Shown here piece after piece: positions 3,410 through 45,123 of a stretch of 45,212 nt of DNA. Below the pieces are notes generated by a model, which made no database searches, was not told where the DNA came from, and saw nothing but the letters and a program-made list of their open reading frames with translations. The stretch covers positions 73,913-119,124 of the forward strand of contig PLZP01000029.1 in the NCBI GenBank assembly GCA_003152215.1, given 5' to 3'. The position numbers and the translations under genes are program-made. This DNA comes from Acidimicrobiaceae bacterium. GTDB taxonomy: Bacteria > Actinomycetota > Acidimicrobiia > Acidimicrobiales > RAAP-2. Every line of letters begins with the position of its first letter. Position 1 is the first letter of the stretch.

Positions 3410-3578
3410 TAGGGACGGTGGGGATCGAACCCACGACCGAGGGATTATGAGGTGGGAGCAGTCGGTCGAAGTGGTCCCGTGGCGTCGGATTGGTCCGAAA
3501 AACTCTGAGGTCTTCGTCCGGTGGTGTCGGTTTGGTCCGGTGGAGTCGGTTTGGTATGTGGGATGAAACGTGGGATTT
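3410..3578 (-). repeat. Array repeat R3
   Basis: tRNA fragment with a single mismatch (GGGACGG) at 3412-3451 plus iteron module. Confidence 0.92.
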
Positions 3579-3990: not shown

Positions 3991-4217
3991 GACTCCTCCA
4001 TTTCGAGCTACTCACTCACTGTATAGATTGCGGGAGGCGCCGGCGCTAGAGACCGAAGTCCCACATGTTTCAGCTCGTAAGTCCGAAAGACGGCACAGAC
4101 CAGACGTTTGTGGCCGGCCCAAGCAAGGGGATCCTCGTCTGGGTTGAGCCATTGGCAAGAGGGAATACTCCGGCTGCGGAGACTTAGGTGCTCGACCTAA
4201 TTGAACGTACCGTCATC

Positions 4218-4293
4218 GGGCCGAGAGGTGGGAGCAACCCGTCGGCCAGGTCCGGTGGTGTCGGATTGGTTTGTGGGATGAAACGTGGGATTT
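4218..4293 (-). repeat. Array repeat R4, degenerate (most of the tRNA fragment and part of the iterons deleted)
   Basis: GGGCCGAGAGGTGGGAGCAACCCGTCGGCCAGGTCCGGTGGTGTCGGATTGGTTTGTGGGATGAAACGTGGGATTT. Confidence 0.85.
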
Positions 4294-6248: not shown

Positions 6249-6337
6249 TTCAACTGCAAGACCAGTTCAGAATCAACAGATTCGCGGATTCAAAATGGCA
6301 CGAATCGGTACTAACAACTTCGGTGAGTCAATGCTGG

Positions 6338-6505
6338 TAGGGCCGGTGGGGATCGAACCCACGACCGAGGGATTATGAGGTGAGGGCAATCGGTCGGTCT
6401 GGTCCGGTGGTGTTGGATTCGTCCGGAAATCGCTGGGTTCTTCGTCCGGTGGTGTCGGATTGGTCCGGTGGTGTCGGTTTGGTCTGTGGGATGAAATGTG
6501 GGATT
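6338..6505 (-). repeat. Array repeat R6
   Basis: Exact 40-bp tRNA fragment 6340-6379 plus iteron module. Confidence 0.92.
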
Positions 6506-6571
6506 ACTGCGAAAGATTGGGCGTTCAAATCAAGCCTCAATGACGTCACATCTCACAACTACGATTTAGTC

Positions 6572-6703
6572 ATGTCACAGACTCAATCAACTCCACCCAA
6601 GAAGTCGACGGCTCTTGACGCACTCGATGAATCGGACCGTGTTTGGTTGGCTCAACGTCTGGTCGAATACCGGGAATTGCTCGACTTTCTCCACTCACAT
6701 TGA
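6572..6703 (+). CDS. Short antitoxin-like protein (43 aa) preceding a Doc-like toxin
   Basis: MSQTQSTPPKKSTALDALDESDRVWLAQRLVEYRELLDFLHSH; its TGA stop overlaps a TTG start of the downstream toxin (TTGA). Confidence 0.55.
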   Translation: MSQTQSTPPKKSTALDALDESDRVWLAQRLVEYRELLDFLHSH

Positions 6704-7110
6704 ACCTTCCTAGTCTCGAACTTATCGTTGCGTTCAACGCTTCGGTCCGCCACAATGACGAGTGGTTCGACGAGGCCGATGATCTCGACCGCATTGTGCG
6801 AATTCTCGACAACCTTCAGACTGCAATCGATCCCATAGTCGCCGCGGCAGTTGCAACGAGTCGAATCACTCGTGCGCAGGCATTCACCGAGGGAAACAAG
6901 AGAACAGCATTGCTGGTTGGTCGATGGATTCTCGATCGCAATGATTTCGATGGAGGCTCAATGATTCCTCCGGACGATTTCGAATTGGCGAACCTGCTTC
7001 TAGATGCCGCTCGAGGCGCGGATACGGATGAGAAGGTTGTTGCACTCTTCAAATTTCGCCGAGCCCCAATTGGGCCGGTGGGGATCGAACCCACGACCGA
7101 GGGATTATGA
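6700..7110 (+). CDS. Death-on-curing (Doc/Fic-family) toxin
   Basis: ITRAQAFTEGNKRTALLVGRWILDRN (Fic/Doc-type xxFxxGNKRTA motif), PPDDFELANLLLDAARG; C-terminal GPVGIEPTTEGL* comes from repeat R7. Confidence 0.75.
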   Translation: MNLPSLELIVAFNASVRHNDEWFDEADDLDRIVRILDNLQTAIDPIVAAAVATSRITRAQAFTEGNKRTALLVGRWILDRNDFDGGSMIPPDDFELANLLLDAARGADTDEKVVALFKFRRAPIGPVGIEPTTEGL

Positions 7111-7220
7111 GGTGGGAGCAAACGGTCGGACTGGTCTGTTGGCGTCGGACTGGTCCGGGATTCAATGAGCTCCCTGTCCGGTGATGTCGACATGGTATGT
7201 GGGATGAAACGTGGGATTTT
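7072..7220 (-). repeat. Array repeat R7 (module one iteron shorter)
   Basis: Exact 40-bp tRNA fragment 7072-7111 plus shortened iteron module ending GTGGGATGAAACGTGGGATTTT. Confidence 0.92.
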
Positions 7221-7278
7221 CGAGCCTAAGCAACTTGTCAAAACTCGTTGTTCAATTCCAGGCGGATCCCAAACGGAA

Positions 7279-7857
7279 TTAGTTTTCGGCAAACTTCTTT
7301 AGCGCTCGTAGATATGAATTTGTGGCACTCGTTTGTATGGACCGAGCGATCGGACCCGAGAGCCGAACCATTGAGCTACCCGGACGAGAAAATCCAGAAA
7401 CTTCAAACACAACTCTTCCCGTGGTCAATTGACTGACAACGAAGGATTCTTCTCCGCACTCTGGATGTCCAAGTAGCGTTCCATAGGCAAATCCAAACCT
7501 ATTCGGCTCTTCAATAATATGAACGATTCGACACGGCGCAGCCATTGAAATTACTCCCGGTCCTAACTCCAAAATAAGCGATTCGCCAAGACGCACGGGC
7601 GGTGCCTGCGGATAGATCTTGACCCGAGGGATGCGGTGTGCCTGCCAGGAGTGCAATCCCGCAACCGCACGGTTAAATACTTCCGTTTTTGGGGATAGTT
7701 CGATCCCATAGTGATGGATTCGAAAGCCAGTCGGAGATGTGCCTTTGATCGACGTTCCGACTTCGGGATAATTAGGTTCAAGATGAGAGATCGAGTTGAG
7801 CAAAGCTTCCATGGCGCGTGTATTTGATGGTCGAATCAATATCAAATTGGTATCCAA
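7279..7857 (-). CDS. DUF1990 family protein
   Basis: FNRAVAGLHSWQAHRIPRVKIYP...CRIVHIIEEPNRFGFAYGTLLGHPECGEESFVVSQL...VVFEVSGFSRPGSSMVRLSGPIARSIQ, DUF1990 signature. Confidence 0.85.
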   Translation of the reverse strand: MDTNLILIRPSNTRAMEALLNSISHLEPNYPEVGTSIKGTSPTGFRIHHYGIELSPKTEVFNRAVAGLHSWQAHRIPRVKIYPQAPPVRLGESLILELGPGVISMAAPCRIVHIIEEPNRFGFAYGTLLGHPECGEESFVVSQLTTGRVVFEVSGFSRPGSSMVRLSGPIARSIQTSATNSYLRALKKFAEN

Positions 7858-7920
7858 TCAGAATTCAAAGTCCCACATCGTGAATCCATGTGACATCGAG
7901 TTGAATCACTGATTGGATAG

Positions 7921-7993
7921 TAGGGCCGGTGGGGATCGAACCCACGACCGAGGGATTATGAGTCCCCTGCTCTAACCACTGAGCTACGGCCCT
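7921..7993 (-). tRNA. tRNA with CAT anticodon (Met elongator or Ile2), intact
   Basis: Reverse complement AGGGCCGTAGCTCAGTGGTTAGAGCAGGGGACTCATAATCCCTCGGTCGTGGGTTCGATCCCCACCGGCCCTA; full cloverleaf, loop CTCATAA. Confidence 0.95.
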
Positions 7994-40593: not shown

Positions 40594-40666
40594 GGGGGTA
40601 TAGCTCAGCTGGTAGAGCACTTGCATGGCATGCAAGGGGTCCGGGGTTCGAATCCCCGTACCTCCA
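40594..40666 (+). tRNA. tRNA-Ala(GGC)
   Basis: GGGGGTATAGCTCAGCTGGTAGAGCACTTGCATGGCATGCAAGGGGTCCGGGGTTCGAATCCCCGTACCTCCA. Confidence 0.96.
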
Positions 40667-40847
40667 CAATTGAAGTTCCTGGTAATCGGCTCACCATCTT
40701 TCTGACTGCGTGAACCCAGCTCACGTGGTTGCATGCAATTACTTGCAATGCAAGAGGTCAACCGTGAGCGAAGCCGATGCATGGATCCACGTTTCCCAAA
40801 CGAGCGTGTTCACCATTCCGTCCACCGATTCCCTCGAGATCATGAAT

Positions 40848-40868
40848 CTTCAGCAGATACTTCAGCAG
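40848..40868. repeat. Left-end paired direct repeat CTTCAGCAGATACTTCAGCAG
   Basis: CTTCAGCA-N4-CTTCAGCAG; counterpart at 44955-44975. Confidence 0.6.
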
Positions 40869-40908
40869 TTGGTCGCAAAAGATTGACTTCTGCCAGGTCA
40901 CTATCATC

Positions 40909-43398
40909 ATGGCGATGGCCGCCGATTCGTTTGTCGAGTTAGTCCAGTCAGCAGCACTTGCCGAACTAGCAGGTGGTCCGATAGGTATCCTCGAGTTGGC
41001 AACTCGTCTTCAACGCCGCGGTGTTCTCGCTCATCTTCAAGGCATTGACGATGAGCAGTTGGCACTCGAACTCGATGAGATTCTCCTTGATTGTGACGGC
41101 ATCTGGACAACCGATGACGGAACTGTTGCTTCAACCGCGGCCTTACTCGACGGGGTGAGTTTTAGTCACCGAATGACGAGTTCGGAACTCGAACGTGAGA
41201 TCATCGACGCACTTCCCGACTTGATCGCTCTTGATTTTGACATCGCCGGTTCGCTGGCCCTTGAGAGCGGAGGGCAACTCGAGTTCTCCTTCGCGGACGA
41301 TCCAGAGTTAAATGAACTCGGCTTCTTCTCCGGACCGGCGGGCTGGCTCCGCGAGATTCGCTCACCCGGGACGATTGTAGTGACTCGATCAGGAAAGGTC
41401 GTGTCGATTCAGACCGGTGGAGCGTTAGGCCGAGGTGACGCTGAAGCAGCTGCGCTACGCCAAGCATTCGATGATCGACATGTCGAAGGCATCTTGAGTG
41501 ATTCGACGGAAGTTGTACTGGACGCACTATGTCGCAACCCGTCGCTCTTTCGCTCGCCGGTCATTCCCGTGAGCGAGCTGTTCGAGCGAGCCGGAATCGA
41601 GTGTCGCGGAGAGTGGGTGGCGCGCCAAGGAGAGTCTGCAGAGCATCCGGGAGTGATATACCGCGAACGACTGATCAACGGGTTGAGCGAGGAATACGGT
41701 TTCGAGAGTTGCTGCACTGAGGCTTTTGAACACGTACTCCTCGAGTGGCTGAATTTCGTCCTAGATCAAACTGCTCTCACTGACGTTCGAGGCGTGGCCC
41801 GCGCTCTCGCGCACGGAGGGGTCGCACCGGCGTTCGTCGACTACCTCCTTAGTGACGATGACCTCGAATCAGAACTTCTGACCGAGTTCGCATCTCATCT
41901 GGTCCCATTGAGTGGGAAGCTCTCGGCCCCTGGTCACTACCTACTCGCACTTCACGCCGAGCGCGGTGGTCGCACGATCGAAGCCGAGCGAGAGCTCCAG
42001 GCCGCGCTCTCTGCCGACTCTGGTTTTGAAGCCGCACTCCTCGAACTGTCCCGGTACGCAGCGGATCGAGGTGATGCCCGCCTTGCAATCTCTCTCTTGC
42101 GACGTTCCGGCGCTTTGGAGAGTGACCCGGAACTCGAGTACTTGAGATTGCGACTTGGAGTTCCAGCCATCGGAGTCGGGCGTAACGATCCTTGCCCGTG
42201 CGGTTCGGAGAGAAAATTCAAGTTGTGTTGCGTCAACGGACGCCGCCAGTCAATTGAAGACCGCGCCGACTGGCTTTGCCACAAGGTCACGCTGTTCTCA
42301 CTTCGACCGCAGAACCAATGGCGCCTAGAAGAGCTTCTCGACATTGCAACCGACGCCGCTCGCGCGGAATCGCCCGATTCGTTCTTCTCCGTTTTGGTCA
42401 GCCTCGCAGCCTTTGACCGCGACGCGCTGGAAGAGTTCATCGAAGCGAGGGGTGTTTTGTTGGCTGAGGACGAGCTCGCACTCGCACGCACGTGGCGGGC
42501 TTCGCCGCCGACGTTGTGGCACGTCGTCGCCGTTGATCCGGGGGCGTCGGTCCAATTGTTCGACACCCGAGGCGGCGCGAGTGTGGTCGTCAAGGACCAC
42601 TCCGCGTCGCAGAGCCTGCACGTCGGCGACTACGTGTTCGTTCGAGTCGTGCCCACCGAATCGAGCTTCCTGTTCACCGGAGAGATCGTTCGAGTGCCGT
42701 TAGCGCATCGGGCATCACTGTTAGAACTTCTCGGCGCTGCAGCAGAAATGCGGGACCTTGCTGCGTGGGTTGGCAGATTGTTCGCACCGATCCAGTTAGC
42801 GAACTACGAAGGAGACGACGTCGTGCTGTGCCGCGCAGTCTTGGCTCCGGTGACGACTTCTTGGGAGGACTTCTCGGATACGTTGGATCGACTTTTTGAA
42901 GAGTCCGACGACGGCCAGTGGACAGAGTTCGTTGAGATCAGCGGCACCAACGTGGTGAGGTGCCTTCTTCGCCGCGAACTCGAGACCCTCGTGGTCGAAA
43001 CGAATTCGATCGAACGCTTTGATCGAATTCTCAAAGTCCTGCACGAAGAAGTTGGTGATCTAGAGGTCATCGACGAGGTGCGCACCGATCTCTCTTCAAC
43101 CGCCGACTTGGTGACTCGAGGTGGGCACAATACGGAGCCTTCAACAGACAGTGACGTCCCAGCCGAGGTTCTTAAAGCGGTTCGTGATCTCATGCGCGCG
43201 AAAGAGGACGCGTGGCTTGACGAGTCGATTCCGGCGCTCGGGGGCCTTACCCCTCGTCGAGCAGCGGCGGACCCCACTCGTCGTGAAGACCTCGCCGCAC
43301 TGCTCAATGAATTCGACCGCCGCGGCGCGGTCGCTCCTCCCGCGATGACCTTCGACGTAACAAGGCTCCGCGAGCAATTAGGTGTCTTCAACTCATAG
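40909..43398 (+). CDS. Large SEC-C motif protein of unknown function
   Basis: IGVGRNDPCPCGSERKFKLCC SEC-C zinc-binding motif; C-terminal ALGGLTPRRAAADPTRREDLAALL. Confidence 0.85.
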   Translation: MAMAADSFVELVQSAALAELAGGPIGILELATRLQRRGVLAHLQGIDDEQLALELDEILLDCDGIWTTDDGTVASTAALLDGVSFSHRMTSSELEREIIDALPDLIALDFDIAGSLALESGGQLEFSFADDPELNELGFFSGPAGWLREIRSPGTIVVTRSGKVVSIQTGGALGRGDAEAAALRQAFDDRHVEGILSDSTEVVLDALCRNPSLFRSPVIPVSELFERAGIECRGEWVARQGESAEHPGVIYRERLINGLSEEYGFESCCTEAFEHVLLEWLNFVLDQTALTDVRGVARALAHGGVAPAFVDYLLSDDDLESELLTEFASHLVPLSGKLSAPGHYLLALHAERGGRTIEAERELQAALSADSGFEAALLELSRYAADRGDARLAISLLRRSGALESDPELEYLRLRLGVPAIGVGRNDPCPCGSERKFKLCCVNGRRQSIEDRADWLCHKVTLFSLRPQNQWRLEELLDIATDAARAESPDSFFSVLVSLAAFDRDALEEFIEARGVLLAEDELALARTWRASPPTLWHVVAVDPGASVQLFDTRGGASVVVKDHSASQSLHVGDYVFVRVVPTESSFLFTGEIVRVPLAHRASLLELLGAAAEMRDLAAWVGRLFAPIQLANYEGDDVVLCRAVLAPVTTSWEDFSDTLDRLFEESDDGQWTEFVEISGTNVVRCLLRRELETLVVETNSIERFDRILKVLHEEVGDLEVIDEVRTDLSSTADLVTRGGHNTEPSTDSDVPAEVLKAVRDLMRAKEDAWLDESIPALGGLTPRRAAADPTRREDLAALLNEFDRRGAVAPPAMTFDVTRLREQLGVFNS

Positions 43399-43482
43399 AA
43401 CGACTATGTCCGGCACGATCAGCCTCGTGTTGCAGCTCTTCCAACGTGAAGTAGCTGCGAGTAGATCGAGGTGTTTCGCCAG

Positions 43483-44733
43483 TCACGGTCCCAGAGTGCC
43501 GACCGGTATGACCATGACACCATCGGGCCTCTGATATGCGTAGCCCGTGGCCGTCACAACCGCCAGGAACGCCGGAGCACCGCAGGTGGACTGATCAATT
43601 CGGTTAGAGAATGTGAGGAGGCTTCTCGCACCTTGGTCGATTTGATTGCTACCGAGTTTCACTTCAATGCCAGCCCAGCAGCCATCGTTCCGCTCCACGA
43701 TGGCGTCGACTTCAAGTCCGGTGTTGTCGCGGTAATGGAATATCTTGGCGTCATGGAGTTGGGCGTAGACGCGCAGATCCCTCACAACGAGGCTCTCGAA
43801 AAGGAAGCCGAGGAAGTTGAGATCGCTGAGTAGTTTCTGCGGACCGGCCCCCAATGCGGCCGCGGCTAGGCAGGGATCAATGAAGTGTCGTTTCGCAGCG
43901 ATGCGCATGCTGGAACGAGACCTGAGCCGTGGCGCCCATGCCGGCTGATCCTCGATTATCCAGAGCCGCTCAAGAGCGGATAGGTATTCTGGAACAGTCT
44001 TGCGGGCGACGGGCTCATCTTCGCCTGCCGTGTCGGCAGCAATTACGGTGGCAGCTACCTGAGTGGCGACATTGCGCGCCAACGACCTTAGGACGCGCCT
44101 CACCTTGTTGGGATCGCGGATGACTCCGTCAACTCGGTTGATGTCGGTTCGGGCTATCTCTTCGAGATAGTTGCCAAGTGCCAGTTGGGCGTCGACCACC
44201 GGAAGGTTGTGTAGGGCTGGCCATCCACCAGTGCAAATGAACTCCGCGATCTCGGAGATGGTGAAGTTGGAATTCGCCGGCGACGGCAGCTGGCCGTCCA
44301 GCAAGTTGCCTAGTGAGACTTCTCCGAAACTTCGGCCCATTTCAAAAAGCGTCATTGGTCGCAGTCTCACTCGAGCCACGCGTCCGGCACCCGTGTGTCG
44401 AGTGACGTCGTCGCTGGGAGCGGCAGAACCGGTGAGAATGAATTGGCCCGGCAGCCGGCGCTCATCAACTTCTCGGCGCACCTTGTTCCAGATTTCAGGG
44501 ACGAACTGCCACTCGTCGATCAATCGCGGCGTTGAACCAGTGAGGATTAGTGCCGGATCAATCTCAGCTGCGGTACGAGCATTCAGGTCCGAGTCGAGGT
44601 CTACTTCGCTAGCCGCCTGTTGGCGCGCCGTTTCGGTCTTTCCGACTGCTTTGGGACCTTCAAGTACGACCGCACCCATGGCCTTGAGTTGCCGTGTAAG
44701 TTCCCTGTCAACGATCCTCAATTGGTAACTCAT
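43483..44733 (-). CDS. AAA ATPase with DUF4143
   Basis: GAVVLEGPKAVGKTETARQ (P-loop), LIDEWQFVPEIWNKVRREVD, GQFILTGSA, VDAIVERNDGCWAGIEVKLG. Confidence 0.9.
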   Translation of the reverse strand: MSYQLRIVDRELTRQLKAMGAVVLEGPKAVGKTETARQQAASEVDLDSDLNARTAAEIDPALILTGSTPRLIDEWQFVPEIWNKVRREVDERRLPGQFILTGSAAPSDDVTRHTGAGRVARVRLRPMTLFEMGRSFGEVSLGNLLDGQLPSPANSNFTISEIAEFICTGGWPALHNLPVVDAQLALGNYLEEIARTDINRVDGVIRDPNKVRRVLRSLARNVATQVAATVIAADTAGEDEPVARKTVPEYLSALERLWIIEDQPAWAPRLRSRSSMRIAAKRHFIDPCLAAAALGAGPQKLLSDLNFLGFLFESLVVRDLRVYAQLHDAKIFHYRDNTGLEVDAIVERNDGCWAGIEVKLGSNQIDQGARSLLTFSNRIDQSTCGAPAFLAVVTATGYAYQRPDGVMVIPVGTLGP

Positions 44734-44954
44734 TATCACTCCATTACGGGCAAATTTAAGTTGCCACTCGGTCCGGCAACTTCCCGCAACACCCAGATTA
44801 TAGCGCTTATAACATCCAGATAGTAATCTCTATAGCACCCGTTTTACAACTGATTCAGCGGCCACTTTAGAATGCACGATTCTGAAACCTGATCTTGACT
44901 CACAACCCAGCCCGAGGCATTTTTGACTCTGGGTACGGCGCGCTGAGGGTTCAA

Positions 44955-44975
44955 CTTCAGCATTTGCTTCAGCAG
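44955..44975. repeat. Right-end paired direct repeat CTTCAGCATTTGCTTCAGCAG
   Basis: Same CTTCAGCA-N4-CTTCAGCAG architecture as 40848-40868. Confidence 0.6.
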
Positions 44976-45085
44976 ATGAGCTGAATTCGAGTGAATCTAG
45001 ATGAACGAAGATGAATTGAAGGCCCTGATAACAACTCTGATATGGACCGATTTGAACGCGTCTGAACGGGTCTTGAGCCGATGGG

Positions 45086-45123
45086 ATGCAAGGGGTCCGG
45101 GGTTCGAATCCCCGTACCTCCAC
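45086..45123 (+). repeat. Duplicated 3' end of tRNA-Ala (attR-like)
   Basis: 38-bp exact copy of 40630-40667 with no 5' tRNA half. Confidence 0.93.

Follow-up and report, generated by a model that had tools for sequence, protein, structure and literature searches.

Does the gene pair that fills one cassette of a tRNA-anchored repeat array form a toxin-antitoxin (TA) module, and what does it mean that the putative toxin gene ends inside the attachment core of its own cassette? The question arises from a 45,212-nucleotide stretch of the genome of an uncultured Acidimicrobiaceae bacterium (hereafter the window, G000:C23:73913-119124). There, a first-pass annotation had placed a Doc-like toxin overlapping a 43-aa ORF by TTGA, reading past ALFKFRR and stopping at a TGA in a 40-nt tRNA-derived core. 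Its coordinates proved right almost to the base, and its reading frame was confirmed. The locus is organized as follows.

6380..6508, plus strand: left end of the toxin cassette, an accessory (arm-like) region with 19-nt iterons and a tail box at 6486-6505 (24-site alignment, model matches).
6560..6565, plus strand: -10-like hexamer TACGAT, 6 nt before the antitoxin ATG, marking a predicted leaderless promoter.
6572..6703, plus strand: 43-aa putative antitoxin ORF, stop included (upstream ORF conserved in intact homologs).
6700..7110, plus strand: putative toxin of Doc type (clade D2), 136 aa, from a TTG start at 6700 to a TGA at 7108-7110 (PF02661, Doc-like family of PHROGs, profile match to P1 Doc structures, homologs).
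6877..6903, plus strand: Fic/Doc motif QAFTEGNKR, with Gln replacing the catalytic His (12-sequence alignment, alignment to 3K33, D2 consensus).
7060..7062, plus strand: last codon (R121) of the natural C-terminus (TGA immediately after it in relatives).
7072..7111, plus strand: 40-nt att core, right end of the cassette, coding for GPVGIEPTTEGL and the toxin TGA at 7108-7110.
7112..7220, plus strand: accessory region of the next cassette, in a shorter form (24-site alignment).
7920..7993, minus strand: tRNA-Met(CAT), anchor of the array, with an intact core at 7923-7962 (ARAGORN, Rfam).

The core at 7072-7111 corresponds to the 3' 40 nt of tRNA-Met(CAT), on the complement strand. Direct repeats of this tRNA 3' end lie at the unit borders and are anchored on the intact tRNA-Met. 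The array extends beyond the window (C23:61580-81874) and contains 15 cores in one orientation, spaced by 692-3103 bp and delimiting about 14 cassettes. The toxin cassette (6380-7111, 732 bp) is the second from the tRNA and is filled by the gene pair. The cores had been described as identical in all intact copies, which does not hold. Six of the seven cores in the window are identical, the one at 3412 having one mismatch; in the whole array, 7 of the 15, counting the tRNA copy itself, have the sequence of that copy, and the others differ from it by 1-4 mismatches. The TGA occurs in 13 of the 15. Cores farther from the tRNA have more mismatches (Spearman 0.65, p = 0.011), which is the pattern that entry of new units at the tRNA would produce.

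At window positions 4213-4292, an att site has its tail box and iterons, and its core lacks about 30 internal nt (GGGCCG then AGAGGTGGGAGC); with this deletion, two cassettes seem to have merged into a single unit that can no longer move. An ORF at 324-635, which by eye resembles the N-terminal part of a PilT-type ATPase, is an apparent gene fragment in a cassette. Just left of the window, two Ns (C23:73911-73912) mark a gap across which the array was scaffolded, so that the link to its upstream half is only as sure as the assembly.

Each core is followed on its right by a conserved accessory region, about 109-128 nt long (shorter in a few cases), with the tail box GTGGGATGAAACGTGGGATT and two or three iterons of 19 nt. 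Overall, 24 att sites align over 169 columns with a mean identity of 85%. RNAalifold detected no covarying stem in these 24 sites and no pair with a compensatory change, hence the site is not attC-like. A folded attC-like site, considered as a candidate, is ruled out by the absent covariation and by the core being a tRNA 3' half. With a sequence model of the att site, arrays were located at this tRNA-Met in many members of the genus; 84 of 99 genomes match, many of them weakly, and the weak matches were taken as the tRNA itself. The longest sibling array reaches about 40 kb (G335), and several sibling contigs end within arrays. Of the 25 genera in a first survey, this genus alone had the tail box, and no exact tail box was found in viral contigs. 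The literature searched yielded no tRNA-type cassette arrays in actinobacteria. Tandem insertions marked by tRNA 3'-end repeats are also found in additive genomic islands (tRNA-Lys, Ca. Methylopumilus, PMC10872708) and in tycheposons. In contrast to these, each repeat in the window carries the conserved 109-128-nt accessory region, the units mostly contain one or two genes, and the array is without an integrase.

What does the larger gene of the pair encode? The protein scores 29.4 bits against Fic (PF02661), above the curated cut-off of 24, and matches the Doc-like toxin family of PHROGs. Its profile matches P1 Doc structures (2e-5), and FICD structures were matched too. It falls below the curated cut-off of TIGR01550 (DOC_P1), with 26.8 bits vs 38.65. 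The catalytic His of the HxFx[D/E]GN[G/K]R motif is absent from the toxin and its homologs: Gln occupies this position in all 12 aligned sequences, the remaining motif being kept, and it aligns to the His of HIFNDANKR in 3K33. QAFTEGNKR in a single-domain protein of 136 aa satisfies the motif Qx[F/Y]x[D/E][G/V]NKR, which is the consensus of clade D2 of Doc proteins (45 sequences; Khater and Mohanty 2015, PMC4454073). By its motif, the putative toxin fits this known, uncharacterised clade. No experiment on clade D2 was found in the literature searched; one may exist elsewhere. Since the catalytic His is missing across the whole clade, the activity of the toxin is uncertain.

Toxin homologs occur in 8 of the 99 genomes of the genus (its own genome included), with a best identity of about 61%, and are sparse in other families of the order. 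No relative was found among the viral contigs or among the plasmids searched. In the window copy, the frame is intact and all family-invariant residues are present. Comparison with genus relatives (NG86) gives dN of 0.34-0.36 and dS of 1.8-2.3, the latter saturated, and dN/dS of about 0.15-0.19. Relatives in G335 and G366 are broken by internal stops. One broken relative (L072:7000-10030, G335:C19) adjoins a tyrosine integrase gene, a VapBC-like pair (by eye) and a tRNA-Val; this region is probably another integrated element.

The smaller gene strengthens the case for a module. An ORF of 38-43 aa lies directly upstream of the toxin gene in every intact homolog examined, with the consensus ...DRxWLxERLxEYRELLxYLHxH. 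In the window, the TGA of the putative antitoxin gene and the TTG start of the toxin gene share 4 nt, TTGA, at 6700-6703; this overlap is kept in nearly all intact homologs, the small ORF and the overlap recurring at 40-61% identity. In addition, TANNNT is found exactly at -12 from the antitoxin start (ATG or GTG) in 10 of the 12 homologs, and in at most 3 homologs at any other of 115 offsets. This position fits the -10 element of a leaderless transcript, and the cassette thus seems to carry its own promoter. The element is known solely from comparing relatives, and a sigma-70 consensus scan of 6300-7300 gave no promoter. As in type II TA systems, there is a small conserved partner, a single operon and a shared promoter position. 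The conserved overlap, partner and promoter in relatives make the pair look like a genuine module, beyond chance, as judged from sequence. The toxin as a spurious ORF is ruled out by homology, partner gene and promoter.

The 43-aa ORF has no match in Pfam, NCBIfam, PHROGs or PADLOC. The arrangement resembles Phd-Doc of phage P1 in having a small antitoxin gene upstream of a Doc toxin with a profile match to 3K33/3DD7, but it differs in the His-to-Gln replacement and in the partner, which is not Phd/YefM-like by profile (Pfam, NCBIfam). With respect to Doc clade D2, whose single-domain organization, Gln and motif consensus it shares (PMC4454073), the window system adds, by comparison of relatives, a conserved upstream partner of about 43 aa and a leaderless promoter. 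The window copy also differs in sitting in a cassette array and in its 15-aa tail running into the core. In the genus relatives L103, L104 and L107, a HicA-like ORF (by eye) lies directly 3' of the pair, which suggests clusters of TA genes.

Could the two genes be a conserved module of another kind? The His-less D2 protein might be a non-toxic scaffold or regulator, with the small ORF as its subunit. Such a role would agree with the Gln found in all homologs and with the published view that His-less Doc clades may be AMPylation-inactive yet retain another function, residual or altered activity also being discussed (PMC4454073). However, the small size of the genes, their overlap, own promoter and patchy distribution are typical of TA modules, as are the mobile contexts near integrase, HicA-like and VapBC-like genes. 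We therefore regard a non-TA module as rather unlikely, and a TA function as the preferred reading of the pair.

We now turn to the 3' end of the toxin gene. The frame reads ...VVALFKFRR, then API, then the core as GPVGIEPTTEGL*. The tail had been given as 12 aa; this is the number encoded by the core, and with the 3 aa that precede the core (API) the whole tail counts 15 aa. A search for relatives with a native stop, as the first-pass annotation had advised, was successful: close relatives (59-61% identity) end ...LFNSRR-TGA or ...LFDSRR-TGA, and other relatives end ...FVSRS, ...LLRSRQS and similar. The tail as a family trait is thus ruled out, and the relatives' stop right after RR makes it particular to the window cassette. 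In the stretches read, none of these relatives lies within a cassette of the tRNA-Met type. The flank before the core of the toxin cassette is CCAATT, vs the usual GTA; at 61% identity, the exact base change behind the stop loss is not readable.

Conserved stops before the repeat in homologs had been put forward as a sign of a recent frameshift or pseudogene. The relatives do stop before the repeat, but the window gene shows no frameshift or visible decay, its invariant residues are kept and its dN/dS is about 0.15-0.19. The gene might still be a dead or dying remnant, in which loss of the boundary stop set off decay and the tail makes the protein unstable or inactive. The native stop at RR in close relatives and the internal stops in G335 and G366 speak for such decay; moreover, dS is saturated, so recent decay of the window copy would be compatible with the overall ratio. 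Against it, frame, partner, overlap, promoter and family-invariant residues are all intact, the overall dN/dS is low, and two distant homologs have natural extensions of their own at the C-terminus (about 20 aa or longer), which suggests that a 15-aa tail may be borne. We consider a decaying gene unlikely and favor a functional gene that tolerates its tail.

The position of the stop has to be weighed against the coding properties of the core itself. As had been proposed, the toxin ends on the same TGA whether it is read in the array or on the hypothetical circle. The core has a stop in one of its three reading frames, so chance alone would place the end of a gene deprived of its own stop there in about one case out of three, and the stop position alone is weak evidence of design. 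The usual GTA flank supplies a TAG in a second frame. Among cassette genes, an alpha/beta hydrolase gene of G313 and G334 also stops in the tRNA-Met core (L063:8793-9950, minus strand, and L166:8669-9838, plus strand; ends given as ...LHKVLLVGPVGIEPTTEGL and ...GPVGIEPTTEGL). Most other long ORFs stopping on the core TGA look spurious. Ending in the core happens, and it is uncommon.

These stops in two frames, together with the hydrolase, could mean that the core is selected as a translation terminator for cassette genes, ending there being a design feature of the array. We hold this to be very unlikely: the core sequence is fixed by tRNA identity and needs no selection as a stop, other cassette genes of the window have their stops some 30-90 nt short of the core, and the arrays scanned hold no more than two distinct real genes that end in it. 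The core stop of the toxin is probably a by-product of stop loss. It nevertheless illustrates plainly, on a small scale, how a recombination site can also serve as the end of a coding sequence.

Taken together, the evidence leads us to favor, with fair confidence, a mobile cassette of the tRNA-Met array that carries a self-contained, type II-like TA operon, whose native stop was replaced by the core TGA. In detail, window positions 6380-7111 would be one mobile cassette of a tRNA-Met-anchored array belonging to a system of tyrosine-recombinase type. It would carry a leaderless promoter, an antitoxin of about 43 aa and a translationally coupled toxin of Doc clade D2. The native stop would have been lost at the 3' boundary of the cassette, the frame entering the core in its sole stop-bearing frame, and the resulting 15-aa tail is probably tolerated. 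The antitoxin would neutralise the toxin, and free toxin would modify a cellular target. Loss of the cassette would then be penalised and array retention favored, which is the least certain step. Counting against this explanation are the uncertain activity of the toxin, the partner's failure to match any antitoxin family and the failure to find an array recombinase, either on the contig or among the integrases searched for a Met core.

The stabilisation step can be set against the cargo of sibling arrays. In six arrays (145 ORFs), the cargo consists mostly of small enzymes: hydrolases, glyoxalases, SnoaL-like proteins and methyltransferases. TA-type genes were found in at least three of the six. 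The arrays of G313 and G335 contain mobile mystery protein A/B pairs (HTH + Fic; L156:2618-3669, L063:7551-8611), the G335 pair being the first cassette, directly beside the tRNA, and YefM-type antitoxin matches number two among the six arrays. The mobile mystery pair (TIGR02612/TIGR02613) likewise consists of two genes, one for a Fic-domain protein, and sits in a tRNA-Met array of the same kind; it is unrelated, with an HTH partner and a larger Fic protein bearing a HAFPNGNGR motif. TA cassettes stabilise the Vibrio cholerae integron (PMC11551772), and the recurrence of TA-type cargo makes a similar idea reasonable here. Stabilisation of the array by the pair, as the first-pass annotation had suggested, is plausible, one TA pair in about 14 cassettes lending it thin support. 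Both systems have single-cassette TA modules in a long cassette array. The window sites differ from those of the superintegron in consisting of a tRNA 3' half plus iterons, with no covarying fold, instead of attC, and no IntI is seen on contig C23.

A wider reading is possible but doubtful. In it, the D2 Doc protein and its leaderless partner of about 43 aa would define an uncharacterised TA type with Gln-based Fic chemistry, borne on a self-promoted cassette of a genus-specific, integron-like tRNA-Met array whose site chemistry is unrelated to that of integrons. Several TA kinds would stabilise this array, in convergence with superintegrons, and cassette genes could take the core as their final codons and stop. 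An active pair would give the His-to-Gln clade D2 a defined partner, promoter and start, and would reduce the question of its enzyme activity to simple co-expression. TA cassettes would then also be known from an array built on tRNA sites, not attC, making the array-stabilisation idea testable in a second, independent system.

How might such cassettes move? Contig C23 contains no tyrosine integrase, IntI type included. Elsewhere in the same genome, an integrase gene (L148:2900-4333, minus strand, G000:C120) runs into an att site with an accessory region of the same type, whose core resembles, by eye, the 3' half of tRNA-Lys(TTT). A relative in G386 runs into an att site of this kind as well, and most of its closest homologs enter the tRNA-Lys-type core. 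This integrase with its tRNA-Lys-type att unit is likely an autonomous element related to the tRNA-Met cassettes. Many array-bearing genomes are without an integrase of the G000:C120 type. No integrase with a tRNA-Met core was found among the strongest integrase matches of 8 sibling genomes or the other integrases of G000, and the att sites adjoining the integrases searched are of tRNA-Lys type only. In the likeliest view, the cassettes would be non-autonomous and moved in trans by visiting integrases.

Phage records match the 40-nt tRNA core only. In mycobacteriophages Yoshi and ThetaBob, a tyrosine integrase gene shares its region with a 40-nt core of 87.5% identity, which makes this tRNA-Met stretch a plausible attachment core; unlike the array, these are whole phages, with a match to the core only and no cassette array. 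The tyrosine integrase genes L151 and L168-L178 also end in a tRNA-Lys-type core, followed in some cases by an accessory region of the same kind. Finally, window positions 40594-45123 look as though they hold a separate element of about 4.4 kb inserted at tRNA-Ala(GGC): the last 43 nt of this tRNA recur at 45081-45123 (98%).
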